This document shows positions 4,465 through 57,893 of a stretch of 64,000 nt of DNA, one piece after another. The DNA is from Scytonema tolypothrichoides VB-61278. GTDB lineage: Bacteria; Cyanobacteriota; Cyanobacteriia; Cyanobacteriales; Nostocaceae. The stretch spans positions 836,948 through 900,947 of the forward strand of contig NZ_JXCA02000016.1 of the NCBI RefSeq assembly GCF_000828085.3. Direction: 5' to 3'. The notes under the pieces are model-generated. The model was given only the letters and a program-made list of their open reading frames with translations, searched no databases and was not told where the DNA came from. Position 1 is the first letter of the stretch. Each line of letters starts with the position of its first letter. The position numbers and the translations under genes are program-made.

Positions 4465-5340
4465 TTAAACCGCTAGATAACGTCGCAAAAAACTTTCTAG
4501 TGTTTCCAGCGAAAAATTGAAGGTGGTTTCCAATTTCGCAATTTCTTCTCTTGTACAGAAAAATTCGTTAGCTAGTAATGTACGAAACGTTCCCAAAGCT
4601 TTTTGTGCTTGGGGATTGAAAAAACCTAATGCACTTCGCACCCCATCTACTGCTAGCAGTGGCGGGTTAATTATCAGTGGGTCTCGGTTAAATATACGAC
4701 TCAAAATTCTGGGAATATCCTCTCGTGTTAGAATTTCTGGTCCCCCAACTGATAATATCTGATTACGAGCAGCTTCAACTGTCACAGAATCTACTATTAT
4801 CCTTGCCAAATCATCTGTACTAACAATAGAGCTACGGTTTTTGGGGTCGCCAACAAGCAGGTAAAACCCTGTTTCTCGAAAACGTTCTGCTAATGGTAGT
4901 AAGTCGGATGCTAATCCAGATGGGCGTAGAATAGTGTAATTCAAACCACTAGTTTCCAGATATCGCTCCACTGCTCGTTTTGCCTTAAACACAGGAGCAT
5001 CTTCGTATCCTCTGTCTGCTCCTAGCACGGAAATAAAAACAAAGTGCTGGACTTGATTAGCTTTTGCGGAGTCTATGAGTTCGATGTTAGCGCGATAGTC
5101 TAAAGCTAAGGCATCTCCATCAGAACCGTGAGCGCTGATAATGTATTGTACGCCCTGACAAGCTTTTTGAATATCTTTTTCTTGACGTAAATCACCAATA
5201 AAGATGTTAGCTCCTCGGTATTCTAACTCGCTGTAGCGCGAAGTGAGACGGACAAATGCTCGCACCTGTTTTTCCTGTTCACATAAAAGTCGCACAACTG
5301 TACGACCTATTCCCCCTGTGGCTCCAGTGACTAGAAACAT
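4465..5340 (-). CDS. NmrA/SDR-like NAD(P)-binding reductase
   Basis: This 291-residue protein opens with the Rossmann dinucleotide motif TGATGGIG (residues 5-12). It continues with FIGDLRQ, FVFISVLGAD and YTILRPSG, the pattern of atypical short-chain dehydrogenases (NmrA or Ycf39-like). These proteins bind NAD(P) and act as reductases, or as redox-sensing assembly factors in cyanobacteria. The classical YxxxK catalytic pair is not evident, as usual for this subgroup. The substrate is unknown. It sits 57 bases downstream of the exonuclease III gene on the same strand, so the two may be co-transcribed. Confidence 0.85.
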   Translation of the reverse strand: MFLVTGATGGIGRTVVRLLCEQEKQVRAFVRLTSRYSELEYRGANIFIGDLRQEKDIQKACQGVQYIISAHGSDGDALALDYRANIELIDSAKANQVQHFVFISVLGADRGYEDAPVFKAKRAVERYLETSGLNYTILRPSGLASDLLPLAERFRETGFYLLVGDPKNRSSIVSTDDLARIIVDSVTVEAARNQILSVGGPEILTREDIPRILSRIFNRDPLIINPPLLAVDGVRSALGFFNPQAQKALGTFRTLLANEFFCTREEIAKLETTFNFSLETLESFLRRYLAV

Positions 5341-5397
5341 ATCAATTTTGGATGTTAACTTATGGATTTTGGATTAGTCAAAATTCATGACTAAATT

Positions 5398-6180
5398 CTA
5401 AAATTCGACAATCACTGGTGCATGATCGCTGGGTTGAGGTAACTTTCTGGGAGCGACATCAATAGTGCAGCTTTTGGCACGCTCATACAAAGCAGGCGTA
5501 AGATAGTGATGGTCAATTCGCCAACCTAAATTACGGCGAAAAGATGCTGATCGATAGTCCCACCAGGTGTAGTGTCCCCCTTCCGAGGTAAATTTGCGAA
5601 AAGCATCAGCAAATCCTAATAACAGGATATCTCGCAACGCTTGGCGCTCTGGTTCTGATGCCATGATGTGATTTTCGCTCTTTGCACTCTGATGAATATC
5701 TTTATCTTCCAGAGCAATGTTAAAATCTCCACACACACAAATAGCAGCTTGTGATATAAGAAGCGATCGCAAATACTCCCGCAGCACTGCTAACCAGCCC
5801 AGCTTGTATTCATATTTCTCGCTTCCCACTGCTGAACCATTGGGTACGTAAAGATTAATAATTCTTATACCGTCTATCTTACCAGTAATCACCCGTTTTT
5901 GCTCATCCCAATCTGGTTGGATGTTCAATAAAGTCGGCGTAAAACCACAACTAACATCCTCTAGTGGTTGACGGCTGGCGATCGCAACACCGTTGTAAGC
6001 TTTTTGCCCTGATAGATAAAGGTTATAGCCCAATTCCTCGAAAGGTGCACAGGGAAATTGTGCGTCTATAACTTTAATTTCTTGCATGCATAGGACATCA
6101 ACGTCACTCACCCTCAGCCAATCAATGACGTGCCCTAAACGAGTACGAATCGAGTTGACATTCCAAGTAGCAATTTTCAT
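5398..6180 (-). CDS. xth: Exodeoxyribonuclease III
   Basis: This 260-residue member of the exonuclease III/AP endonuclease family cleaves DNA 5' to abasic sites and removes nucleotides from 3' ends during base-excision repair. Family motifs are all visible: WNVNSIR near the N-terminus, MQEIKV with the metal-binding Glu34, YVPNGS, CGDFNIA with the catalytic Asp/Asn, WRIDHHYLT, and the terminal SDHAPV with the catalytic His. Length matches the family. The start ATG at 6180 is the natural one, since MKIATWNVNS is the usual N-terminus. Confidence 0.95.
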   Translation of the reverse strand: MKIATWNVNSIRTRLGHVIDWLRVSDVDVLCMQEIKVIDAQFPCAPFEELGYNLYLSGQKAYNGVAIASRQPLEDVSCGFTPTLLNIQPDWDEQKRVITGKIDGIRIINLYVPNGSAVGSEKYEYKLGWLAVLREYLRSLLISQAAICVCGDFNIALEDKDIHQSAKSENHIMASEPERQALRDILLLGFADAFRKFTSEGGHYTWWDYRSASFRRNLGWRIDHHYLTPALYERAKSCTIDVAPRKLPQPSDHAPVIVEF

Positions 6181-6550
6181 TTTAGTCAGTCGTCATTCTC
6201 CAGGTGTTTGCGTCCTCTGATCACCCATCTCCTCCTCCTGCAACATTTTTAGAATTGATCCCGTTTCAGGGTTTTAGTACTTTTCGTTACAAAAATTTTA
6301 AGCCTTAATGAGCCCCAAGATAGATGAATCGTCATGTCAGCAAACAGTAATCTTAAAGTATACTCCCGCTATAGGAAGAATGGCTAGTATTAAATTAACC
6401 AACAACTATATCAGGGTAGGGTTAACCGAAATTGCACTCGGGTGAGTCAGTCAGGTTAACCTAAGAGACAGATGATTAAGTACAAATGCTCGATCATCAG
6501 ATATACGTCCTAGCAATGGGACTCTTTTACATGCTGAACCAAAACTACCT
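6181..6550. other. Intergenic region between divergent xth and glycosyltransferase
   Basis: Both flanking genes are transcribed away from this 370-base stretch, so it should hold two promoters. I see a small palindrome AGGTTAACCT near 6453 and a related GGGTTAACC near 6420, but no convincing -35/-10 pair, small ORF or RNA gene. Confidence 0.5.
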
Positions 6551-7618
6551 ATGAAAATCGCTCAAGTAGCCCCCTTGTGGGAACGAGTTCCACCTCCAAC
6601 ATATGGAGGAATAGAGCTAGTTGTGAGTCGCTTGACAGATGAACTAGTGCGTCGTGGTCACGATGTCACTCTGTTCGCATCTGGTGATTCGCAAACATTG
6701 GCGAAGTTAGAAGCAGTTTATCCTCGTGCATTGCGCTTAGACCCAGATGTCAAAGAGTACGGAGTGTACGAAATGCTGGAACTGAGCCAGGTTTACCAGA
6801 GAGCACAGGAATTCGATATCATTCATTCCCACGTGGGAATAACGGCGTTACCTTTGGCGAGTTTTGTACAAACACCTACTGTGCATACCGTGCACAGCAG
6901 TTTTACTACTGATAATCGTAACGTATACATCCACCATCATAAGCAACGATACGTCAGCATTAGTAACGCGCAACGCGAAATAAACCTGAACTACGTTGAC
7001 ACAGTCTACAACGGAATTAATCTAGAGGATTATCCTTTTGTTGCCCAACATCAAGAACCCCCATACTTGGCATTTTTAGGACGCTTTGCGCCAGAAAAAG
7101 GACCGCACCATGCGATCGCCATTGCCAAAAAAGCAGGCTGGCATCTAAAAATGGCAGGAAAGGTTGATAAAGTAGACTCTAAGTTCTTTGAACAAGAGAT
7201 CGCCCCACATATTGATGGAGAGCAAATTCAATATCTAGGCGAAGTTAACCACGCCGCGAAAGTTGAACTATTGGGTAATGCTGCGATCACTCTATTTCCG
7301 ATAGGCTGGCAAGAACCCTTTGGTTTGGTGATGGCTGAATCAATGGCAACTGGTACACCAGTTATTGCCATGAGTTTAGGTTCCGTACCAGAGGTTATTG
7401 CCCACGGTGTCTCAGGTTTCGTCTGCCAAAGTTACGATGAAATGGCGACAATGATTCCAGCTGCTTTGGAACTTAATCGTCAAACTTGTCGAGAACATGT
7501 AGAGAACAAGTTTAGCGTCAGCCAAATGGTTGATGGGTACGAGGCGGTGTATAGAAAAATCATACAAGGCCGCATTCATTCAAACGGTCGCCTTCATGAT
7601 GCAAAAATCAAAGTTTAA
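6551..7618 (+). CDS. Glycosyltransferase family 4
   Basis: This 355-residue GT-B fold retaining glycosyltransferase has an N-terminal acceptor-side segment PPTYGGIELVVSRLTDELV with a Gly-rich loop and HDVTLFASGDS. In the C-terminal half, FLGRFAPEKGPHHAIAIAKK and EPFGLVMAESMATGTPVIA (the EX7E nucleotide-sugar motif) are clear. Such enzymes transfer sugars from NDP-sugars to lipids, polysaccharides or small molecules. The sugar and acceptor cannot be told from the sequence. The start follows MKIAQVAPLWERVPP, typical of the family. No strong ribosome-binding site is seen. Confidence 0.92.
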   Translation: MKIAQVAPLWERVPPPTYGGIELVVSRLTDELVRRGHDVTLFASGDSQTLAKLEAVYPRALRLDPDVKEYGVYEMLELSQVYQRAQEFDIIHSHVGITALPLASFVQTPTVHTVHSSFTTDNRNVYIHHHKQRYVSISNAQREINLNYVDTVYNGINLEDYPFVAQHQEPPYLAFLGRFAPEKGPHHAIAIAKKAGWHLKMAGKVDKVDSKFFEQEIAPHIDGEQIQYLGEVNHAAKVELLGNAAITLFPIGWQEPFGLVMAESMATGTPVIAMSLGSVPEVIAHGVSGFVCQSYDEMATMIPAALELNRQTCREHVENKFSVSQMVDGYEAVYRKIIQGRIHSNGRLHDAKIKV

Positions 7619-7732
7619 GTAACGATTTTTTAAGCTGAGCGGCTTGCCCTGAGCGTAGTCGCAGGGAGTCGAAGCTTTAACGCATCTACTACATCTATAA
7701 AATCAATAGCTTTTCAAAAGGAGGACAACGAT

Positions 7733-7918
7733 ATGAGTATGAGAGCCAATGATTGCCCTTGCTGTGGCGGTTCCCTCCTACGTCATGTCCGTCATGGTGA
7801 ACTTTACTGGTTTTGCAAAACCTGCTGGCAAGAAGTACCAGTTTTAACTGTGAGTCAGATACCAAACTTGGAAGGAAGAAGTAAGGCATCTGTGCCTCAA
7901 ACAGCAGTAAAAGCTTAG
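7733..7918 (+). CDS. Small zinc-ribbon protein
   Basis: This 61-residue protein has two cysteine pairs, CPCC near the N-terminus and CKTC about 18 residues later, which would form one zinc ribbon. A strong ribosome-binding site (AAGGAGG, 7718-7724) lies nine bases before the ATG. Similar tiny zinc-ribbon proteins are common and uncharacterised in cyanobacteria. It is flanked by the glycosyltransferase and the alcohol dehydrogenase on the same strand with gaps of about 110-160 bases. Function unknown. Confidence 0.75.
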   Translation: MSMRANDCPCCGGSLLRHVRHGELYWFCKTCWQEVPVLTVSQIPNLEGRSKASVPQTAVKA

Positions 7919-8081
7919 TGTCAAAAGGCAGAAGACTAGAAGATCTATAAAATGGGGGTTTTGTAGATTTGGAACTGTCTAGTTCTTTCTGCTAGGCTGT
8001 ACTAGGTTTCTAGACCTTAAGATTCATTCTTTGATCGTAAAGTTCCCGTCTTCACCTGGTAAAATCAGGTGGAGCAAATTA

Positions 8082-9131
8082 TTGGTTAAAGCTCGTGTGT
8101 TAGCAGCGTTACTTTACGGCAAAGAAAATTTACGTTTAGAAGAAGTCGCTTCACCAACACCCGCAGTCGGTGAAGTTGTCATCCAAGTAAAAGCAGCAAC
8201 AACTTGTGGTACAGATTTAAAAGTTTGGCGTCGGGGCGGTCATGCTAAGATGCTCAAACCACCAACACTGTTTGGTCATGAAGCTGCTGGCGAAATTGTC
8301 GCTATCGGAGAGGGTGTCACGGGTTGGCAAGTGGGCGATCGCCTGGTAGCAAATAATTCTGCTCCCTGCATGAATTGCTTTTTTTGTCAACGTCAAGAAT
8401 ATTCCCTCTGTCCAAATTTGACATGGAATAACGGCACTTTTGCCCAATTTTTAAAAATTCCTGCACCGATTGTGCAACATAATATGTTGCCAATTCCTGA
8501 TGACTTGCCTTACGAATTGGCAGCAATGACAGAACCTCTGGCTTGTGTGCTACATGGAGTCGCCCGTTCCAACGTCAAACCAGGTGATTCTGTGGTGGTG
8601 TTAGGAGACGGGGCAATTGGGCTGATGTTTGTGGCTAAATTGGCTTATGATGTCAAAGCTGAAGTGTTACTCTTTGGAGGCAATCACCAAAGGCTAGAAA
8701 TTGGAGAAAAACTGGGTGCAGCAAAGACCTTTAATTATCATCAATTCCCAGAGATTCCTAGTTTAGTGAAAGAACTGACACAGGGATGGGGTGCAGATGT
8801 GGTGATTGAAGCAACTGGTGTACCAAGTGTCTGGGAAACCGCAATTGCTTGTGCCCGTCCTGGTGCAACTGTTAACTTATTTGGTGGTTGTCCACGAGAT
8901 ACGACTATTAGCGTGAATACAGAACAGCTACACTACAGCGAACTCACTCTCAAAGGGGTTTTTCATAATACTCCAGAGTATGTTCGGGCGGCGCTGTCAC
9001 TGATTGCAAGTCAGAAGATTCCCTTTGAGTTACTCATCAGCGAACAGCGTCCATTGCAGGATTTAGAACAGGTGTTTTGTGATATGAGAGATCGTAAGGT
9101 TATAAAAGTCGCAATGATTCCATCAGGCTGA
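8082..9131 (+). CDS. Zinc-dependent medium-chain alcohol dehydrogenase
   Basis: This member of the zinc alcohol/sorbitol/threonine dehydrogenase family oxidises alcohols with NAD(P). The catalytic-zinc ligands are seen in TTCGTDLK and FGHEAAGEI. The four-cysteine structural-zinc loop is present (CMNCFFCQRQEYSLC), as is the nucleotide motif VVLGDGAIGLM. The substrate is not predictable. The frame is open from a TTG at 8031. I prefer the TTG at 8082 because AGGTGG (8068-8073) precedes it at good spacing. A GTG at 8097 (then LAALLYGKENL) is equally like homologues, so the start is uncertain. Confidence 0.85.
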   Translation: MVKARVLAALLYGKENLRLEEVASPTPAVGEVVIQVKAATTCGTDLKVWRRGGHAKMLKPPTLFGHEAAGEIVAIGEGVTGWQVGDRLVANNSAPCMNCFFCQRQEYSLCPNLTWNNGTFAQFLKIPAPIVQHNMLPIPDDLPYELAAMTEPLACVLHGVARSNVKPGDSVVVLGDGAIGLMFVAKLAYDVKAEVLLFGGNHQRLEIGEKLGAAKTFNYHQFPEIPSLVKELTQGWGADVVIEATGVPSVWETAIACARPGATVNLFGGCPRDTTISVNTEQLHYSELTLKGVFHNTPEYVRAALSLIASQKIPFELLISEQRPLQDLEQVFCDMRDRKVIKVAMIPSG

Positions 9132-9144
9132 CTCTTAAGAAACA

Positions 9145-9235
9145 CACTTAACAGTGAACAGTGAACAGTGAACAGGGACTGATAACTGGTAACTGGTAAC
9201 TGATAACTGGTAACTGATAACTGATAACTGTTAAT
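9145..9235. repeat. Tandem heptamer repeats (AACAGTG / ATAACTG)
   Basis: Three AACAGTG units are followed by about eight ATAACTG/GTAACTG units. They run into the last codons of the gene encoded on the opposite strand, whose stop overlaps the repeat edge. This is a typical Nostocales short tandem repeat. Confidence 0.85.
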
Positions 9236-9578
9236 GTAAATTTTGCCACTGACCAGAAAAGATAGACTCAGTTGCAGTGGCGATTCTCAGCAAATCTTGC
9301 AGTAGTAAGGGCGACCATTGAACGCCCGCCTTGCGCCCTGCTGCAAAAAGTTGTTGAGTCCTAATGCTTAATAGATATAAGGCGTAAGCTAATTTTTTGT
9401 CTATAACAGTAGCATCTTTTACACCTTCAAACACCACTTTCAATGCCAACAAAATCGAGGTGATCTGACCAGGTATTGGTGGTTCTCCTCGCTGTAGACG
9501 CATCAACAAGGCATCTGAGTTTTCCTCGTTATAAAGTGTTTGGTCAATCAAAAATTTGCAAGCGGTTTCGTAATTCAT
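9231..9578 (-). CDS. Conserved cyanobacterial hypothetical protein
   Basis: The likely protein has 115 residues and starts MNYETACKFLIDQTL (ATG at 9578). The frame is open to 9641, but the N-terminal extension is unlike a protein core. It is helical and soluble, with the pattern PPIPGQITSILLALKVVFEGVKD and FAAGRKAGVQWSPLLLQDLLRIA. I recall similar short proteins in other filamentous cyanobacteria, but I cannot assign a function. No signal peptide, membrane helix or metal motif is visible. The stop codon lies at the edge of a tandem repeat. Confidence 0.65.
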   Translation of the reverse strand: MNYETACKFLIDQTLYNEENSDALLMRLQRGEPPIPGQITSILLALKVVFEGVKDATVIDKKLAYALYLLSIRTQQLFAAGRKAGVQWSPLLLQDLLRIATATESIFSGQWQNLH

Positions 9579-9752
9579 TTTCGAGGGGCATCCATCACAC
9601 CTTTGCCTACCTATTGCAACATTTGACTCACGAATTAACATTTTACCTTGATAGCCTTACAAACGCGTCATATAAAAAGAATTCCCTTACATTTTGCACC
9701 TGGAACAAATATGTCAAATTAATGACAGGCTGCTTGACTTTGTTCTCGTCCG

Positions 9753-9803
9753 CCTAGGACTGTAAGTCCCAGGCTAATAAGCAAAGTCCATTCCAATGGA
9801 CTG
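9753..9803. repeat. Paired palindromes, REP-like element
   Basis: Two hairpins stand side by side. CCTAGGACT/AGTCCCAGG (9753-9773, loop GTA, one mismatch) is followed by AGTCCATT/AATGGACT (9785-9802). Paired palindromes with an AGTCC core of this kind are recurrent intergenic repeats in Nostocales, resembling REP elements mobilised by IS200-like transposases. No transposase is nearby. The rest of the 380-base gap before tldD shows no gene. Confidence 0.5.
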
Positions 9804-9961
9804 AAAAAAGAATTTCATTTTTAGTACTGATAAACACTAGTGTTTAGAAAAAGTAATGGTTTATTCGTAATTATGCCAGATCTCAGTTCTCTCGTTCAGT
9901 GGCAGCTAATACTGGCATAATTGCACAATGAAGGCAGTTCCTCATTGTTCTTGTCCGACAA

Positions 9962-11359
9962 ATGCCGACTTTACTTACTGACGCTCAAAATTTACTTTCG
10001 GACTTACTCAAGCGCTACTCATACAGTGTAGATTATCTGATGATTCGCCTTGAAGAGGCTGAAGGGACTGATATCTTCTTGCGTGGCGACAAGGTAGAAA
10101 GCCTTAGTGAAGGTATCTCCATTGGTGGACAGATTCGTGCATGTTACAAGGGTGGTTGGGGGTTTAGTAGCTTTAACCAGCTTGAGACAATTCGCGATCG
10201 CATTGAAGAAGCCATCGCCGCCGCCAAAATTGTTGGTGAAGAAGAAACTGTCTTAGCTCCAGTTGACATAGTGCAAGCAGTGTGCGCCATACCATTAACT
10301 GGAAGCGATCCTCGGAAAATCTCGTTGAAAAAGAAAAAAGAATTGTGCGATCACTACACACAATTACTCAAAAGTGTTGACAGCCGGATTACCACCACCT
10401 CTGTCCGTTATGGAGACAGTGCTCAAAAAGTTATCGTCGCCACCAGTGAAGGGACTTTTATTGAGCAATCTTGGGTAGATATGGAAATGCGCTTCGCCGC
10501 CACAGCAAGAAACGGCGAAACTGTGCAAACTGGAAGAGAAACCACAGGTTCGCGCAAAGCCTTTGAAGATTTGACGGCTTTAGATGAACAAGTTAAAGAA
10601 GCAGCACAAAGAGCAGTTGCAGCGTTATATCTGCCATCGGTGAAAGGTAATACTTATACTGTGGTGATAGATCCGATTCTTTCTGGGTTATTTGTTCACG
10701 AAGCCTTTGGGCATCTTTCTGAAGCAGATATGGCATACGAAAACCCGGATTTGTTGGAAGTCATGACCATTGGGCGTCAATTTGGACCAAAAGAATTGCA
10801 GATTTTTGATGGTGCTGCGCCCCAAGGACATCGTGGTAGCTATTTTTATGACGATGAAGGCACACCTGCAACCACAACCCAACTGATTTCAGATGGAATT
10901 TTGACAGGACGTTTGCATTCCCGCGAAACGGCTGGCAAATTGGACGAAGCCCCAACGGGCAATGCACGGTGTCTTAGTTATCACTATCCTCCGATTGTAC
11001 GGATGACCAATACGTGGATTCAACCAGGTAAAACACCTGTTGGGGATTTATTTAGCGGTATAAAAGAAGGAGTTTACGCCCGTAATTGGTTGGGTGGAAT
11101 GACGAATGGGGAAATGTTCACCTTCAGCGCTGGGGAAGCGTGGATGATTAGAAATGGTAAGATTGCTGAACCTGTGAAGGATGTGACGCTTTCAGGGAAT
11201 GTTTTTCAGACTTTGGCGGATATTGAGGCGATCGGGGATGACTTTTACTGGGATGAGTCTGGCGGTTGTGGTAAAGGTGGACAAAATGGTTTGCCTGTAG
11301 GTTGCGGTGGTCCTAGTTTAAGGATACGTGATGTGGTGGTGGGAGGAGAAGCGGCTTAA
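9962..11359 (+). CDS. tldD: TldD/PmbA-family metalloprotease, TldD-type
   Basis: This 465-residue TldD-like subunit has the zinc motif HEAFGH (His246, Glu247, His251) in GLFVHEAFGHLSEAD, a late Cys in VGCGGPS and the conserved GYxYDDEG-like SYFYDDEGTPA. TldD pairs with TldE/PmbA to degrade unfolded or leader peptides, including maturation of some modified peptides. No partner gene is in the window. The N-terminal domain and overall length are normal. The gene is followed directly by a strong hairpin. Confidence 0.92.
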   Translation: MPTLLTDAQNLLSDLLKRYSYSVDYLMIRLEEAEGTDIFLRGDKVESLSEGISIGGQIRACYKGGWGFSSFNQLETIRDRIEEAIAAAKIVGEEETVLAPVDIVQAVCAIPLTGSDPRKISLKKKKELCDHYTQLLKSVDSRITTTSVRYGDSAQKVIVATSEGTFIEQSWVDMEMRFAATARNGETVQTGRETTGSRKAFEDLTALDEQVKEAAQRAVAALYLPSVKGNTYTVVIDPILSGLFVHEAFGHLSEADMAYENPDLLEVMTIGRQFGPKELQIFDGAAPQGHRGSYFYDDEGTPATTTQLISDGILTGRLHSRETAGKLDEAPTGNARCLSYHYPPIVRMTNTWIQPGKTPVGDLFSGIKEGVYARNWLGGMTNGEMFTFSAGEAWMIRNGKIAEPVKDVTLSGNVFQTLADIEAIGDDFYWDESGGCGKGGQNGLPVGCGGPSLRIRDVVVGGEAA

Positions 11360-11370
11360 AGTGAAAAACC

Positions 11371-11403
11371 AGATCCCCTACTTCTTAGAGAAGTAGGGGA
11401 TCT
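11371..11403. terminator. Long perfect hairpin after tldD
   Basis: AGATCCCCTACTTCT (11371-11385) and its exact complement (11389-11403) form a 15-bp stem with a TAG loop. There is no T tract, so it may be a dispersed hairpin repeat acting as a weak terminator. A close relative occurs at 61000-61030. Confidence 0.6.
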
Positions 11404-11474
11404 CTCGCTCCCATGCTCTGCGTGGGAGTGCCACACAGTGGCCTGCTGCCTCCTATAATTGAACTATCTACAAG

Positions 11475-11789
11475 TTAATTGCCTTCCTGGTCGTCTAACC
11501 AAGTTACTAAATCATCTATTGATGACATTAAGAGTGCAGGATTATTGAGAAATTGCACGGAATCTTGTTCCCACATCCGCAAAAAGCGATAGCGATGAGT
11601 TGTCGTTTCACTGCGATATTGTTAAGTGAAGGCAATTTCGTCATTTGTTTGTTGTAAAAAAATCACGAGTTGGGTTACAGGGACTTTATACTGACGTATC
11701 AACCTGACAGAATAATCCAACATCCGAAAATAAATCGGTGTTTTAGATCTTGTTATGGTTTGAAACTCAATGTGTAATATTATTTCCAC
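11475..11789 (-). pseudogene. Rpn/PD-(D/E)xK putative transposase remnant
   Basis: Reading leftward, the frame encodes ILHIEFQT, then FRMLDYSVRLIRQYKVPVTQ, then RFLRMWEQD. This is the core and end of the Rpn family (recombination-promoting nuclease, formerly 'putative transposase' or DUF4351-linked) that is abundant in cyanobacteria. An in-frame TAA at 11622-11624 interrupts it. The normal N-terminal third is missing, since a stop lies just upstream at 11790-11792. It is a truncated, inactivated copy. Its 5' remnant abuts the Zur-like site of the next gene. Confidence 0.7.
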
Positions 11790-11801
11790 CTATTTTAGCA
11801 T

Positions 11802-11821
11802 TAATAACGATTATCATTATT
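11802..11821. promoter_or_regulatory. Zur-box-like palindrome before the COG0523 GTPase
   Basis: The site TAATAACGATTATCATTATT is nearly palindromic. Read on the other strand, TGATAAT-C-GTTATTA matches the cyanobacterial Zur consensus TGATAATNATTATCA (recalled from Anabaena work) at 12 of 14 defined positions. It ends two bases before the ATG. A sister site lies before hemB at 14419-14438. The consensus match is knowledge-based; zinc regulation is inferred. Confidence 0.65.
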
Positions 11822-11823
11822 AT

Positions 11824-12600
11824 ATGACTATACCCAAAATTACTGTTGTCGCAGGTTCAGCAGGCGCAGGAAAAACCACTTGGATTACCCAACAAATAGC
11901 TTGTAGTGATGTCACTACGAGTCATATTTTGTATTTCAGTCCTGGAGTAGGGAATGTTGCCATCGACCAAACCCGCCTGAAAAGCGAATATCCTGCTGTT
12001 AAAGTCTTTAAAGATGGAGAAGAAGTTGAGTTCCTCAGACACTTACCCTCAGCAGATGCTGTTTATATCGAACTGGGATTTTATCTAGAACTGAATGCTA
12101 TAGCACCAATACTGGATAATCTATCGTACCGTGCGATTGCCATCTTGCCACCCCATCTCCAAAACTCTGAGTATCATGCTTGGGCAGATGAAATTATACT
12201 AGGTTCAGCCATAAATAGTAATATTACCACTACCCTATGGCGCGTTCCTACGACTGGTCAAGTTATTGACGAAGATAGTTTGGAAGAGTTGTGGTACGAA
12301 ATAACTCACGGTGCTTACGGTCAAGTCAGCCGCGCTAAGGGAATTTTTGATGTTGGAGATGGGCGATCGCTTTACGCTGATTTTGTCGCAGGCGTTCCAT
12401 CAACCGATTTTCTAGAATTAGACTTACCCCGCCACTTGGAAGGTAAACCCCAACGTTTCAGTGGGATAGAAGTGTCAGGACAAAACTTGGATGAAGCAGC
12501 GATGGGGCAAACTTTAGAAGATTGCTGTTTGTCAGACGCTGCAATTTGGCAATACCAACAACAGGTAAAACAAATTCTACTTGAGGAGATAGAAGCGTGA
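11824..12600 (+). CDS. COG0523/CobW-like GTPase, putative zinc metallochaperone
   Basis: This is a G3E-family P-loop GTPase with Walker A near the N-terminus (AGSAGAGKTTW). The C-terminal CobW-like half includes AYGQVSRAKGIFDV. COG0523 proteins act as metal chaperones or insertases, often for zinc. The CxCC metal motif of many family members is absent, so this is a divergent or shorter (258-residue) version. The frame is open from 11770, but I start at the ATG at 11824, since MTIPKITVVAG is a normal N-terminus. The upstream residues would be translated from the operator. Its stop overlaps the next start by four bases (GTGA). Confidence 0.85.
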   Translation: MTIPKITVVAGSAGAGKTTWITQQIACSDVTTSHILYFSPGVGNVAIDQTRLKSEYPAVKVFKDGEEVEFLRHLPSADAVYIELGFYLELNAIAPILDNLSYRAIAILPPHLQNSEYHAWADEIILGSAINSNITTTLWRVPTTGQVIDEDSLEELWYEITHGAYGQVSRAKGIFDVGDGRSLYADFVAGVPSTDFLELDLPRHLEGKPQRFSGIEVSGQNLDEAAMGQTLEDCCLSDAAIWQYQQQVKQILLEEIEA

Positions 12601-52754: not shown

Positions 52755-53209
52755 ATGATTGTAGGGTATGCCCGTGTTAGCACCAACGCCCAAGCCGATG
52801 GGGAAGCTTTAGACCAGCAGATAGCTAGACTCAAGGCTGCTGGTGCAGAAGATATTTTTGTTGATGTCGAGTCGGGACGTAGTGTTAAGCGAAGCTCTGC
52901 CGTTAGCGGGGCGTGTCCGCAGGACATAGGCAATCGCCGTCCCCAGTTTAAAAAGTTGTTGGCGTTAGTTGAGACGGGTAAAGTCAAAGAGTTGATCATT
53001 GCCCGTATCGACCGCCTGGGGCGCAGCGTTATTTCCTTGCACAAAGCCATCAAACTAATTGAAGAGAACGGTGTCGAGTTACGGGTGCTAGATGCATCTG
53101 TAGATCCTAACTCGCCTTTTGGGTGGTTTAGCATCTCTAAACTTACGTATTTACCGATAATTTTGTGCATAATACTGTTACAATTTACCCTTAGACTAAA
53201 CATTTGTTA
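52755..53209 (+). pseudogene. Truncated serine recombinase (XisF/resolvase-like)
   Basis: The N-terminal resolvase catalytic domain is clear: MIVGYARVSTNAQADGEALD with the nucleophile Ser10, IIARIDRLGRS with the catalytic Arg pair, and GVELRVLDASVDPNSPFGWF. After GWF (about 53130) the text changes to a hydrophobic, unrelated tail (LPIILCIILLQFTLRLNIC), so the C-terminal DNA-binding domain is lost. A Ser/Gly-rich block (RSSAVSGACPQDIG, about 52880-52930) is encoded by an intergenic-type repeat inserted in frame. A fragment of the same gene type recurs at 55922-55953. Probably inactive. Confidence 0.75.
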
Positions 53210-53294
53210 AACATCTTTGGGAATGTTGAGGCTATTATTTGCTTTATATGGAGATTTAATTTAAATAAAAGTTAAAACTGAGTAGGAGGACGTT

Positions 53295-53870
53295 ATGACT
53301 GAGCTTAATACAGAGGAACTAATTTATCTGCTTTATGCTGATGCTTACTCAGAAGCAGGTACAGTAACAAAAAGCACTGTAAAATCATACCTACCGAACG
53401 AGTGGAAGGGAAAAGCAGAGAAAATCTATGATGCTTTACAGAGCCAGGAACTGATCAAGCCGACTAGTAAAGGGCGTTTTTCTGTGACGGAGCAAGGCGG
53501 AACAGTCCTAGTCACGAATCTGGCAACTACTGCTTACAAGTTTGATTCCATTAAAGGTCCTAAAGTATTGAATACTTTACTCAACTGTATTAGGAAGGCT
53601 GCTGAGGCTTATCCTCAAGTCACGTTCTCTAAAGATATGACTTTTGATGAATTTCAAGATAAATTCAAAACGCTCTACTTTGAGGAGAGAAAACAACAGG
53701 CATTACAAGGTGTTGTTGTAATCCGCAAACGAGAGATATCTAAGCACTTTATGGATCAAAATTCTATCCTTCAGCATCAGTTTGAGAAATATTTTGAGAT
53801 GCTGAAAACAAAAGGAGAGATATCTATGACTGAGGGTAGAGAAGATGAACTAATCGAATGGGTGGAGTAG
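53295..53870 (+). CDS. Winged-helix-like protein, first gene of a two-gene system
   Basis: This 191-residue soluble protein has a strong ribosome-binding site (AGGAGGA, 53284-53290). Residues about 5-67 have a winged-helix pattern (LNTEELIYLLYADAYSEAG, STVKSYLPNEW, IYDALQSQELIKPTSKGRFS then VTEQG), as in DNA-binding or protein-interaction adaptors. The C-terminal half (VLNTLLNCIRKAAEAYPQV, MTFDEFQDKFKTLYFEERKQ) is helical. I know no named family. It ends three bases before the ATPase-nuclease start, so they form one operon. It may recruit or regulate that enzyme. Confidence 0.75.
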   Translation: MTELNTEELIYLLYADAYSEAGTVTKSTVKSYLPNEWKGKAEKIYDALQSQELIKPTSKGRFSVTEQGGTVLVTNLATTAYKFDSIKGPKVLNTLLNCIRKAAEAYPQVTFSKDMTFDEFQDKFKTLYFEERKQQALQGVVVIRKREISKHFMDQNSILQHQFEKYFEMLKTKGEISMTEGREDELIEWVE

Positions 53871-53873
53871 ATT

Positions 53874-55718
53874 ATGGCTGAGGATGCAGGTAAAAAAGAT
53901 GATATCAGAGAATTTCTTGAACGTGTCAATCGTGGTGTGAGATTTATTGAAGATATTTGGATTGAACGCGATGTTAAACAGCGAGGTTCAGAAGGAAAAT
54001 TCAATGAAGCGAGGAGCCTTTCGGGGAGACCTATATCTAATATCACCGAGCTCCTCACTGATGACTTAAGGCATAGTTTTGATGATGGCTCCTTTACTTT
54101 TAGGTTTGTTGCTGCTGTCCCTGGTAGTGGTAAGACAACGCTGCTTGATTATCTACGTGAATTGATAGAGGTTGAACCTAGATACAGAAGATGTGCAATA
54201 GTAGTTCAGTTTCCGTTCAATGAATTGCTTTCAGAATCTGGAAATGAAAGTTTTGGCGTTAAATTTTATGCTTACACCTTGACTCAAACTTTCTGGGAAT
54301 TGATGAGAGATGATAATACAAGCTTATCCACTGATATTAAGGGAATAGCTGAAAAATTCCTCAGTAAGATTATTGGCAAAGAAAAAGTTGCTCACTTGAA
54401 ATTAACAACTGATTTTGAAATGGGTTTCATTGAGCAATTAAATGAATATATTTGCGAAAAAAAGACTAATTTCAAGAAGCTTTTTTTCAGTAGCATAAAA
54501 CATTTTTTACAGGCTGATTCTCAAGTAACCTTTGTTTACTTAATGGATGAGCTAGATGCATTACAGTCGCATCAGGATTATTTACAGGATGCTAGATCTA
54601 TCGTTAGAGACCTAATCAATGAAGCACTTGGTGGCGGAAAAATTCGTCTCATGATCTACATGGTTGGCGTGTCAGATGATGTAGAAACTTTTATCAAAGC
54701 AGATCATGCCCTGTACAGTCGTGTTTTCGATTCCGTTATAAATCTCGTTGCTTACCGTCGAGAGGAATGTGAAAAAATCAGATCAAAAATAGAAGAACGG
54801 ATTGAAGGTGCCTACAGTGGTTGCAAAGATTTTGATAAGGCTTGGCAAGAAATTAGGAATATAGAGCTTGAACCTGCACATGACTATAGTAGTTTAAGAG
54901 AATTCTGTAAAAAATTGTCAGGAAAAGTAATTGAGATACATGAAAGGTACTTCCACTTTTTCGATAAGTCTTTCAACAAATTTGAAGGAAAGGCACGTCA
55001 ATTAGTTGAAATACAAGCTAGAAAGAAATGGAGTGGATATCTTGGTGATTCCTTGACAGAGGAAACGAGTACGGAACAGCGTTTTGGGCATCTAGGTCAT
55101 ACAAAGTGGAAAAAATATAAAGGTAAAAATGGTTTTGTACTTTTAGTAGCGACAAGTACGACAATTATTAAAAATCATGCTGTAGATTGCTATGCAGAAT
55201 TATGGCATAACGGTCATGAAGTGGCGAAAGCATATGGAGAAGCTAAAAATTATTCTTTAACTAAAGAGCATATAGATACATTCCAACAGTGGTTAACTGA
55301 CTTTAAGTATGAGTCTATTTCTACAGATGGAAATCCACCTGATCTTGCATTTATAGTTTCGCCTTCTTGCACAGCTTTACAGCAAAGAAAATTAAAGATA
55401 AAGAGTATTGAATTTATTGAAGTAGAAAAAATTATTGAGCCGAACCCTCGTGAAATAGAAGTTCGTGAAATAAAAGGAAATGACTCAGTTGGGGAAGTAT
55501 CGGTTGTCCAACATGTGGTTAGCATAAATAAAGCCGATAAAAACTTGCTTAGCAACGCACTCAAGGGTACAGCAATTCGTAAACCAACCGTTGACAAGCT
55601 GATAAACAACAGACCTTATAATGATCTTGAAGATTTAGCTACCAAAATGAAGTTTACCAAGTCTGTCCAAGATAAACTTCAGGCTAAACTCAATAGTGGT
55701 GAAATTTGCTTTGATTAA
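53874..55718 (+). CDS. P-loop ATPase fused to a PD-(D/E)xK nuclease with C-terminal HhH
   Basis: A 614-residue protein. An AAA/ORC-like ATPase occupies about residues 75-330: Walker A AAVPGSGKTT (Lys87), Walker B VYLMDELDAL (Asp225, Glu226), a sensor-like LMIYMVGVSDD and an Arg-containing SRVFDSVINLVAYRREE. Residues about 405-500 resemble a restriction-endonuclease fold: NHAVDCYAEL (Asp438), then KAYGEAKNYS (Glu456-x-Lys458). The last 65 residues form a ComEA-like helix-hairpin-helix (SINKADKNLLSNALKG, RPYNDLEDLATKMKFTKSVQ). ATP-driven DNA cleavage is inferred. The nuclease call rests on motif and spacing alone. The pair is more AT-rich than its surroundings. Confidence 0.75.
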   Translation: MAEDAGKKDDIREFLERVNRGVRFIEDIWIERDVKQRGSEGKFNEARSLSGRPISNITELLTDDLRHSFDDGSFTFRFVAAVPGSGKTTLLDYLRELIEVEPRYRRCAIVVQFPFNELLSESGNESFGVKFYAYTLTQTFWELMRDDNTSLSTDIKGIAEKFLSKIIGKEKVAHLKLTTDFEMGFIEQLNEYICEKKTNFKKLFFSSIKHFLQADSQVTFVYLMDELDALQSHQDYLQDARSIVRDLINEALGGGKIRLMIYMVGVSDDVETFIKADHALYSRVFDSVINLVAYRREECEKIRSKIEERIEGAYSGCKDFDKAWQEIRNIELEPAHDYSSLREFCKKLSGKVIEIHERYFHFFDKSFNKFEGKARQLVEIQARKKWSGYLGDSLTEETSTEQRFGHLGHTKWKKYKGKNGFVLLVATSTTIIKNHAVDCYAELWHNGHEVAKAYGEAKNYSLTKEHIDTFQQWLTDFKYESISTDGNPPDLAFIVSPSCTALQQRKLKIKSIEFIEVEKIIEPNPREIEVREIKGNDSVGEVSVVQHVVSINKADKNLLSNALKGTAIRKPTVDKLINNRPYNDLEDLATKMKFTKSVQDKLQAKLNSGEICFD

Positions 55719-55921: not shown

Positions 55922-55953
55922 ATCGCCGTGCCCAGTTTAAAAAGTTGTTGGCG
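55922..55953. repeat. Fragment of a second recombinase copy (direct repeat)
   Basis: This 32-base sequence matches 52933-52964 inside the truncated recombinase at 31 of 32 positions and in the same orientation. It encodes RRAQFKKLLAL of a resolvase, with the rest of that copy missing. The two copies bracket the two-gene system at about 3 kb distance. The surrounding gap (55719-56058) has no other recognisable feature. Confidence 0.8.
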
Positions 55954-56058
55954 CTACATTAATCCTCTGCAAACATAAAAGTTCACCCTTGAGGTAGAAA
56001 AGAACAACAAATAATCTAATGTATAGTTCTGAGTGCATCTGTCTAGATTGCTTTGCCA

Positions 56059-56451: not shown

Positions 56452-57893
56452 ATGAAATTTCAACAATGGCGCTCAATCATTTTTATACTTTTTTTGCTGG
56501 TTTTAGTAAGTATTATTGGCTATGCGGTCGAAGTTTCAGTGCCAACAAGAGCACCGAAGTTGAGCAATACCTACACGCCCTTAACTCAACCTACACCACA
56601 GAAGATTGGCTCCTATGATGTATTAGGTAACACCATTGATCGGGCGACGGCTGATCAACTATTACAAACTGAAGAAGGTCGAGTGCAACTCGCGCCTGAG
56701 AATGGAGCGATCGCCATCACCAAAGACTTAATTGACCTTGGTCGGGATGCTTTCTACCGAGAAACCTTTGGCAATGAATACTTCTTTGGAGTGGGTTTTC
56801 CTCGGTTAGCTGGTTTCATGGGCTGACGACACTCAACAATAATGTTCATGCCACTAACTCCGATCCCACAACAGGTTCTTACGCCAGTAAATACCTACTA
56901 GGAATAGATAAAGAAACGTATTTGGGAGTCATTCTCCAAAATTCAGCCAATCGCAAATTCCGTTTACCTGAAGGGGTGAAACCTTCAGAGTTTCTTCAAA
57001 AGAACGATCCTACACCGGGGGAACCTGCGATCAACGAGGTAATTAAAATGCCCGGATATCCCAAAGGGTCAATTTTTGTTTTGGATGGATTGATGGCAAA
57101 CTCTCCGGGGTTCCCGGTTGGAGTACAAATAAATGGCATGTCAGCCTATCAAAACACCCTGGCTCCTCCTCCTTATAAATCTAGGAACGTAGAGGCTATC
57201 CAACGTGGTGCAACCGTGTTTGAAAAAGCCAATTGTGCTCAGTGTCACAGTGGACGCTACTTCACCAATCACGATGTCATTCCGGTCTCGGAAATCAAAT
57301 CTCAACCGTCACGAGCGTCTGCGTTAGCAAAACTGCCGCAAACCTTTGTTCCTCCAGAAACCTATCCTGGTAATGTATCTGTGCCATTACCATCCGATCC
57401 GCCCGTGATCTCTGTACCGCTCAAAATTACGCCCGAGCGCGTGCGAGATTTAGCGTATGCCATCAGTAATCCCGCCGGAGGCTACAAAGTCCAGAATTTG
57501 ATCGGACTCTACCTCACTGCACCGTATTTGCATGATGGTGGAGTAGCAGCCAGTGCAGCAGCATTGCTTCCTGATGCAGACGGTTACTACACAGTTGCCA
57601 AGCCGGATCAAATAGGACTAGCAGGTACATGGATGCAACATATTGAACCCGATCCAGAGGCAAGTTTACGGGTGTTGGTTGATCGCGATCTGCGCGAGGT
57701 AGCGATCGCCACTAACCGAGCCAATCCCGACTTGCAAGCAATTAATGTAGACGGCAGTGGGCATGAATATTGGGTTGATCGAAAAGCGGGATTCACGCCG
57801 CAAGATCAGAGTGATCTGATTCAATTCTTACTTTCCATTGATGATGATCCAGCCGTGTTGCCAGCTTCTGCAAAAGTAGCAGCAGCAAACTAA
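56452..57893 (+). pseudogene. Frameshifted exported cytochrome c / di-heme peroxidase-like gene
   Basis: The first frame (56452-56826) has a signal/anchor (IIFILFLLVLVSIIGYAV) and the text IAITKDLIDLGRDAFYRET, typical of this cyanobacterial c-type family. It stops at TGA 56824. The second frame continues from GLTTLNNNVHATNSDPTTGS to 57893; one lost base in ATGGGC would join them. A heme motif CAQCH (57234-57248) and PYLHDGGVAA are present. Other proteins of this kind usually have two hemes; only one CxxCH is seen here, so a segment may also be missing. It could be a sequencing error instead. Confidence 0.7.

Follow-up and report, generated by a model that had tools for sequence, protein, structure and literature searches.

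The subject of this analysis is a pair of adjacent genes, here called A and B, in a 64,000-nt stretch of the cyanobacterium Scytonema tolypothrichoides VB-61278 (contig NZ_JXCA02000016.1); the whole stretch is referred to as the window, and positions are counted from its start. The pair belongs to none of the named systems tested and is a variant within a published class of operons that combine an ORC/Cdc6 ATPase, a restriction endonuclease (REase) and winged helix-turn-helix (wHTH) proteins. Within this class it represents a compact form: the predicted nuclease is fused to the ATPase, a third gene is missing, and in one of 34 B proteins the tail is swapped for WD40 repeats. On balance, we favor the view that the pair encodes a DNA-targeting nuclease that depends on ATP and has a winged-helix specificity subunit, and that it probably acts against invaders. 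More tentatively, it may be a minimal ATP-driven restriction machine of two genes without a modification enzyme – an ATPase-nuclease core, a tandem winged-helix reader and an exchangeable tail – and may belong, as one branch, to a wider group of cyanobacterial wHTH-AAA+-nuclease operons that has mostly gone unnoticed.

A and B form a genuine two-gene unit. A first-pass annotation of the window had described two genes three bases apart, preceded by a strong ribosome-binding site and not followed by a third gene. The coordinates, the spacing on the same strand and the AGGAGG motif are correct (Table 1), and no third gene common to the A+B loci was found across the loci compared; the largest cluster of recurring neighbors covers 11 of 41 loci and is a loose grouping of response-regulator-like type, varied in distance and strand. 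The annotation had also proposed a check for conserved gene pairing. A pattern-based scan of the GTDB collection, which distant relatives may escape, yielded 41 loci with B relatives, all titled as cyanobacteria (fetched loci are labeled L in the following). The start of B is unreadable in five of them: the sequence of L029 and L062 starts inside the gene, and L063, L064 and L066 consist of a C-terminal piece only. In all 36 loci with a readable start, A lies directly upstream of B in the same orientation, separated by 3 nt in 30 loci, 4 nt in one, 5 nt in three and 16 nt in two. Loci do not equal independent genomes here, as Nostoc mirabile supplies two, and the contigs L029 and L059 come from the same assembly.

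Both genes are under purifying selection: the ratio of nonsynonymous to synonymous substitution rates (dN/dS; Nei-Gojobori) between the window and a Rhizonema copy (L027) is 0.25 for A and 0.25 for B. Comparisons with three more distant copies give 0.09–0.16 at saturated dS; for a fifth copy the ratio is not computable. Over 34 shared loci, the distances of A and B correlate with r = 0.84 (without a control pair), which is the expectation for co-inherited genes. The distribution of the pair is patchy. B is matched in four of 59 near-relative genomes sampled (window genome counted) and in eight of 386 genomes sampled across the phylum, some of the matches being partial, and a profile search with A detected an intact pair in seven of the 386 cyanobacterial genomes. 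Shortened or split copies occur in L061, L063 and L064. Such a patchy presence, along with the damaged copies, fits defense genes.

The residues that would be expected of an ATPase and a nuclease are conserved in B. In an alignment of 34 B proteins – the window copy included, the partial or split L029, L059 and L061–L066 excluded – G84, G86, K87, T88, D225, D228, E371, D438, G455, E456, A457, K458 and H466 are invariant (34/34); position 85 is serine in 30 proteins, and position 226 is glutamate in 33 and aspartate in one. Hence the Walker A (K87), Walker B (D225, E226) and nuclease-type residues (D438, E456, K458) named by the first-pass annotation lie where it had placed them, and all but E226 are identical throughout. 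The AlphaFold2 model of B (built with the relatives; mean predicted local distance difference test score, pLDDT, 85.4; predicted template modeling score, pTM, 0.76) contains an AAA+ domain up to about residue 355. It is followed by a helix (369–385) that bears the invariant E371 and precedes the nuclease-like core, by strands 421–426, 435–445 (with a break at 438) and 448–457, a helix (464–476) and a further strand (491–496). D438 lies inside the second strand, and E456-x-K458 at the end of the third. We take this order of helix-strand-strand-strand-helix-strand to be that of the PD-(D/E)xK core; accordingly, the whole-protein model presents residues 395–516 in nuclease core order and not clearly in a non-nuclease fold.

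All Foldseek matches of B in the PDB at E<=0.001 are AAA+ proteins, mainly ORC subunits, plus TnsC, BrxC, RdrA, HslU and Tip48; MuB is also among the Foldseek matches. Together with the conserved Walker residues, these matches characterize B as an ORC/Cdc6/TnsC-like AAA+ protein, with low TM-scores that do not distinguish the sub-clade. Sequence searches of solved structures with B returned weak matches only, and the Pfam family BrxC_BrxD is found in seven of 34 B proteins at E<=0.1 (best 7.6e-5). The tail (residues 546–614) is helical in the model; HHH_3 matches eight of 34 tails at E<=0.1, in agreement with the helix-hairpin-helix (HhH) tail first proposed, and the window copy alone reaches 0.38, below the cut-off. 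In L058, from an uncultured cyanobacterium, B spans 816 aa (10001–12451), and WD40 repeats (1e-43) replace the HhH-like tail. This single example among 34, from a metagenome assembly, suggests a tail that acts as an exchangeable recognition module. Judged by motifs and model, B may be the ATP-dependent nuclease that the first-pass annotation had proposed.

For A, which had been described as winged-helix-like, the AlphaFold2 model (with relatives aligned; mean pLDDT 87.9) shows two winged helices joined by helices; at a pTM of 0.55, the relative placement of the two halves is uncertain. At E<=0.1, Pfam Mrr_N is found in 20 of the 37 A proteins compared (best 8.4e-4). Foldseek matches of A are weak and comprise winged-helix regulators, cullin complexes and DpnI (E 0.018–0.023); the aligned part of DpnI is presumably its winged helix. 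The annotation had matched the pair to no named defense system. Likewise, no family in Pfam, PADLOC, NCBIfam or PHROGs is matched above its cut-off by A or B, nothing in NCBIfam 2026 comes near a cut-off, and in PADLOC 2023 the best match of A is not convincing (PDC-M11B, E 0.0097), while B has none at E<=1.

Table 1. Positions of the A+B pair, its domains and motifs, and adjoining features in the window
Feature	Position	Strand	Description and basis
Gene A	53295..53870	+	191-aa tandem winged-helix protein, putative DNA/target adaptor; open reading frame
Gene B	53874..55718	+	614-aa AAA+ ATPase – PD-(D/E)xK-like nuclease – HhH-like protein; open reading frame
Ribosome-binding site AGGAGG	53284..53289	+	5 nt before ATG of A; sequence
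A, first winged helix, residues 6–78	53310..53528	+	AlphaFold2 secondary structure
A, second winged helix, residues 145–189	53727..53861	+	AlphaFold2 secondary structure
B, AAA+ ATPase domain, about residues 56–355, boundaries approximate	54039..54938	+	Pfam, AlphaFold2, Foldseek
B, Walker A GSGKT, residues 84–88	54123..54137	+	G84, G86, K87, T88 in 34/34; S85 in 30/34
B, Walker B D225-E226	54546..54551	+	D in 34/34, E in 33/34
B, PD-(D/E)xK-like nuclease core, residues 412–520	55107..55433	+	AlphaFold2 helix-strand order; invariant residues; no profile match
B, Asp438 codon	55185..55187	+	34/34
B, Glu456-Ala457-Lys458 codons (ExK)	55239..55247	+	34/34
B, HhH-like tail, residues 546–614	55509..55715	+	HHH_3 in 8/34 at E<=0.1; AlphaFold2 helices; WD40 instead in L058
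Truncated serine recombinase, resolvase N-terminal domain only	52755..53210	+	Pfam Resolvase 8.4e-23, residues 2–125; setting, outside the system
Direct repeat of ~35 bp, left copy, recombinase-derived	52933..52967	.	94% identical to 55922–55956
Direct repeat of ~35 bp, right copy	55922..55956	.	94% identical to 52933–52967

Homologs of A also occur at the head of other operons. In the 386 genomes, the A profile retrieved 20 weaker matches (E 3e-9 to 1e-3) in addition to the seven true pairs, and 13 of these 20 regions were fetched. Among them, L120 resembles an Mrr endonuclease; in the remaining 12, a homolog of A (A') comes first, then an AAA+ ATPase gene, which is fragmented in L111 and L117, and then a gene for a protein of about 480 aa. 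We refer to this arrangement as type II. Its third proteins share invariant G-G-x-G-G-x-D and E-C-K motifs (12/12), and each of three scanned with Pfam matches DUF1802 above the cut-off and Mrr_cat below it (E 0.0017–0.0043). A and A' are homologous according to hhalign (P 1.3e-12; 3.6e-13 and 9.4e-13 with other settings), whose P values here and below are single-pair values, not database E-values. Nine type II proteins gave no convincing PADLOC match and none above the NCBIfam cut-off; in the plasmid search, a type II ATPase had one partial match (Pseudanabaena) and a type II adaptor none. By eye, a second AAA+-like ATPase gene was seen upstream of a type II A' (L109:5551-7386), and a DUF1802-like gene about 4.5 kb upstream of an A+B pair (L034, ~4963-9997); in genome G301, the A' and A genes are about 7 kb apart.

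The profile of A' also led to type III operons, which consist of a gene for an adaptor of about 280 aa (A''; 20 of 386 genomes), an AAA+ gene (B''; about 610–720 aa) and a gene for a protein of about 860 aa. A'' and B'' are adjacent in all 18 loci fetched out of the 20. The third gene was detected in 16 loci, being short in L161, L165 and L166, and escaped detection in L154 and L157. In Pfam, the one database used for type III proteins, the two third proteins examined both match a 3'-5' exonuclease, PDDEXK_1, FtsK_alpha and FtsK. The adaptors A' and A'' are linked by a P of 1e-14, A and A'' by 3e-4, and the larger ATPases B' and B'' by 3e-29. As far as sequence comparison indicates, the adaptor is common to the three operon types, and the two larger ATPases are clearly related. 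The window genome possesses all three types, with A' at C3:759371-760006 (L152) and A'' at C3:491301-491852 (L153); by the counts made, it is the only one of the seven pair-bearing genomes with type III. The window-type pair and the type II adaptor occur together in six of the seven genomes (Fisher P 7e-5); because this test ignores kinship, we do not use the co-occurrence as evidence.

How does the pair relate to systems already known? Mrr carries its nuclease on a wHTH protein, and McrBC follows an ATPase plus PD-(D/E)xK logic in which motor and nuclease are separate. A resembles Mrr_N; membership in the Mrr (Type IV) group was rejected, since A is only Mrr_N-like and the window B lacks Mrr_cat (no Pfam match at E<=1), so that the two parts do not form one protein. 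A restriction-modification system was rejected as well: no methyltransferase recurs beside the pair, and the MTase_II models listed match one of 127 neighboring proteins each.

The nearest counterpart is an operon class in print, not a named system. Rakesh, Aravind and Krishnan (2024, PMC10853773) describe ORC/Cdc6 AAA+ operons in which an REase is fused to ASCH and accompanied by a DndG-like wHTH protein; type II (A'-B'-C') is matched here to these operons, for which we infer that DUF1802 equates with ASCH. The window pair shares with type II a first gene of common origin, followed by an AAA+ gene and a predicted nuclease of PD-(D/E)xK type. It differs in that type II has three genes and a separate, DUF1802-fused nuclease, whereas B contains the predicted nuclease inside the ATPase polypeptide together with an HhH-like tail. 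Section 22 of the same paper describes Orc/CDC6 ATPase operons with an inactive REase, an active REase, HerA/FtsK and multi-wHTH proteins; some of these HerA/FtsK proteins have FtsK-alpha and some a fused 3'-5' exonuclease, a make-up that fits type III. For operons fitting both sister types, an anti-selfish-element role was assigned there in silico. Like these HerA/FtsK capture systems, the pair has a wHTH protein (tied to type III via A') followed by an AAA+ gene; unlike them, it has no HerA/FtsK motor, exonuclease or third gene. Membership was rejected, as no HerA/FtsK gene recurs beside the pair and as B, instead of an inactive REase with a C-terminal wHTH, keeps the catalytic-type residues and ends in an HhH-like domain.

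The prokaryotic relatives of CR-effectors (Zhang et al. 2016), as outlined in section 26 of PMC10853773, have an ATPase of the ORC/Cdc6 clade joined to a C-terminal REase. This is the architecture predicted for B: an ORC/Cdc6-clade-like ATPase, then an REase-like domain, in one protein (see also the passages on these proteins in PMC5289972 and PMC11342252). The difference lies in the wHTH partner gene and the HhH-like or WD40 tail of B. BREX, covered together with BREX-related capture systems in PMC12839542, likewise combines an ORC/Cdc6-like AAA+ protein with a multi-wHTH protein, and BrxC is among the Foldseek matches of B; yet BrxC, at 1200–1300 residues according to that paper, is about twice as long as B, and PglZ and a methyltransferase were not noticed among the recurring neighbor clusters, so BREX membership was rejected. 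We noticed no published description of the exact A+B pair among the papers surveyed. The word 'cyanobacteria' is absent from the main texts of PMC10853773 and PMC12839542, and 'HhH' and 'helix-hairpin-helix' are absent from the main text of PMC12839542, where alone they were looked for.

The following model could account for these parts. A, with its two winged helices, probably recognizes the target DNA by its structure, a modification or an exposed site, and would load or license its partner B. Its AAA+ part would probably bind ATP and form a ring or filament on DNA in the manner of TnsC, MuB or ORC; such oligomerization would place the PD-(D/E)xK-like nuclease and the HhH-like tail on the duplex for cutting. 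Overall, DNA loading of the TnsC/ORC type would be coupled to a restriction-type nuclease, with DNA as the presumed substrate, a presumed dependence on ATP and labor divided between A and B. Because no methyltransferase partner recurs, discrimination would be Type IV-like, i.e. based on structure or foreign modification, or dependent on a trigger. Counter-invader defense is the most likely role of the pair.

Several observations weigh against this interpretation. The nuclease region of the window B matches no PD-(D/E)xK profile in Pfam, and for the 34 B relatives none appears among the 25 of 88 Pfam families listed; hence the region is assigned as a nuclease on the strength of its invariant motif and its predicted topology. 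It also has no detected homology with the nucleases of the sister operons, Mrr_cat-like in one type and PDDEXK_1 in the other. The sequence signal linking the ATPase of B to the sister ATPases is weak and at best suggestive of homology: P is 1.7e-4 for B and B'' and 0.006 for B and B' (0.004 and 0.028 in other runs), versus 0.0047 for a bare P-loop comparison. We therefore claim homology for the adaptor only, and an origin of B as a simple fusion of a sister ATPase with a sister nuclease is not supported. TM-scores of B are low (0.21–0.29 by query in the 50 matches listed), so that the AAA+ class is supported and no close relative or sub-clade is indicated. Neither B (plasmid, phage and IMG/VR searches) nor A (plasmid search) has a match among mobile elements. 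The recognized neighbors (by eye and Pfam) are largely metabolic or housekeeping genes, some being defense-like. Finally, the occurrence of A' in 60 of 386 genomes at E<=1e-25 (71 in all; a few of the 60 are partial; operon structure inspected in 13 loci) makes a maintenance role possible for the whole group.

The first-pass annotation had also pointed to enrichment near known defense genes as a check. Among 127 neighboring proteins (up to two per side per locus; L063, L064, L066 and masked proteins excluded, one spurious minus-strand reading frame over the window recombinase included), the commonest PADLOC model listed matches three and the commonest Pfam families listed match four at E<=1e-10, with 25 of 97 families listed for each database. 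Defense-type matches listed are mad2 (3), PD_DExK, mad3 and PDC-S03 (2 each), MTase_II, REase_II and PDC-S02 (single) and Pfam Uma2 (4). Some defense-like neighbors thus exist; with no control set, enrichment is neither shown nor excluded, and we dropped the defense-island argument. A DNA cytosine-methyltransferase-like gene (by eye) was noticed next to the pair in a single locus, L030, on the downstream side at a distance of about 188 bp.

An alternative that we consider unlikely is genome maintenance: A and B would recognize and trim aberrant DNA, such as stalled forks, ends or incoming single strands in transformation, and have no immune role. Proteins of repair and competence often contain HhH, AAA+ and wHTH parts, and both the metabolic neighborhood and the widespread sister adaptor would suit such a function. 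So would the position of several groups of copies at a shared chromosomal site, e.g. Nostoc L032, L033 and L038 together with the shortened L063 and L064 (the latter from Brasilonema), an Okeania/Trichodesmium/Microcoleaceae group of six, and other groups. The shared sites suggest long residence, and the pair is not always recent mobile cargo. What speaks against maintenance is the patchy occurrence of the window-type pair, shortened or broken in some relatives, the copy with a WD40 tail, and the interpretation of sister-type operons as anti-invader in print (PMC10853773). In the Okeania/Trichodesmium/Microcoleaceae group only, a gene of about 260 aa lies on the same strand 0.6–1.4 kb upstream of A (L048, L050, L051, L053, L056, L061).

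The immediate setting of the window pair bears on a second alternative, in which B would be a TnsC/TnsA-like ATPase-nuclease fusion that moves itself, comparable to the transposon-linked prokaryotic relatives of the CR-effector ATPase-REase proteins. The pair had been described as lying between broken recombinases. This holds for the left side, with a resolvase fragment cut off after 151 aa; the right side retains no more than a recombinase-like repeat of about 35 bp. The gene upstream is, we presume, a dapL-like aminotransferase gene. In G002, another genome of the same genus (89% complete; G000 denotes the window genome), the flanks at window 52891 and 55936 lie 67 bp apart, compared with 3,044 bp in the window. 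The absence in G002, the direct repeats flanking the pair beside a truncated recombinase, and TnsC and MuB among the matches of B would be in line with mobility, as would the link of ATPase-REase proteins to transposable elements reported in the relevant part of PMC5289972. That the recombinase frame of the window extends beyond 52891 is a hint that G002 lost the stretch rather than that the window gained it. Against mobility, the repeats are pieces of the recombinase, and one is also present at the corresponding place in G001, a further genome of the genus. Neither a transposase gene nor terminal inverted repeats were noticed at the pair, for which no systematic search was made; the window genome has a single copy of B, and several groups of relatives share a chromosomal site. 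Self-mobility of B appears improbable. Of the horizontally acquired cargo suggested initially, the locus missing in G002 and the adjacent recombinase fragment remain in favor, and the chromosomal sites shared by relatives stand against it.

Some observations concern the surroundings of the pair. A segment of G001 (C74:124762-124809) matches window 52930–52977 and belongs to the same recombinase; downstream of the aminotransferase gene there is thus the decayed site of a mobile element. Downstream in the window (56452–57893), a protein that by eye looks like a cytochrome c appears distributed between two frames of 124 and 323 aa, perhaps owing to a frameshift. L041 (16195–21644) holds nearly identical copies of a PIN-like gene (by eye) with a small partner gene, of which three and two were seen; next to these copies, a C-terminal piece of B recurs, either by tandem duplication or as an assembly artefact.

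A toxin-antitoxin or abortive-infection system, in which B would be a self-targeting nuclease held back by A until infection, seems very improbable to us. A small first gene strictly coupled to a larger nuclease-like gene would correspond to such a pair, and relatives of the CR-ATPase-REase type are described as toxins or effectors in the parts of PMC5289972 and PMC11342252 devoted to them. Yet gene order alone is not decisive, and the homologs of A in two other operon types are wHTH proteins encoded ahead of AAA+ genes, which points to a subunit of a machine rather than to an antitoxin.

If a DNA-targeting nuclease with a winged-helix specificity subunit is the correct interpretation, the pair would add a small, testable member to the conflict systems that combine an ORC/Cdc6 ATPase with a nuclease and that in PMC10853773 and PMC12839542 are based on comparative genomics; no PADLOC or NCBIfam model convincingly covers it at present. 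With two genes in 2.4 kb, it could easily be moved into a laboratory strain. Because the related adaptor connects three operon types whose nucleases differ, an experiment on the smallest of them could then provide a model for the others.

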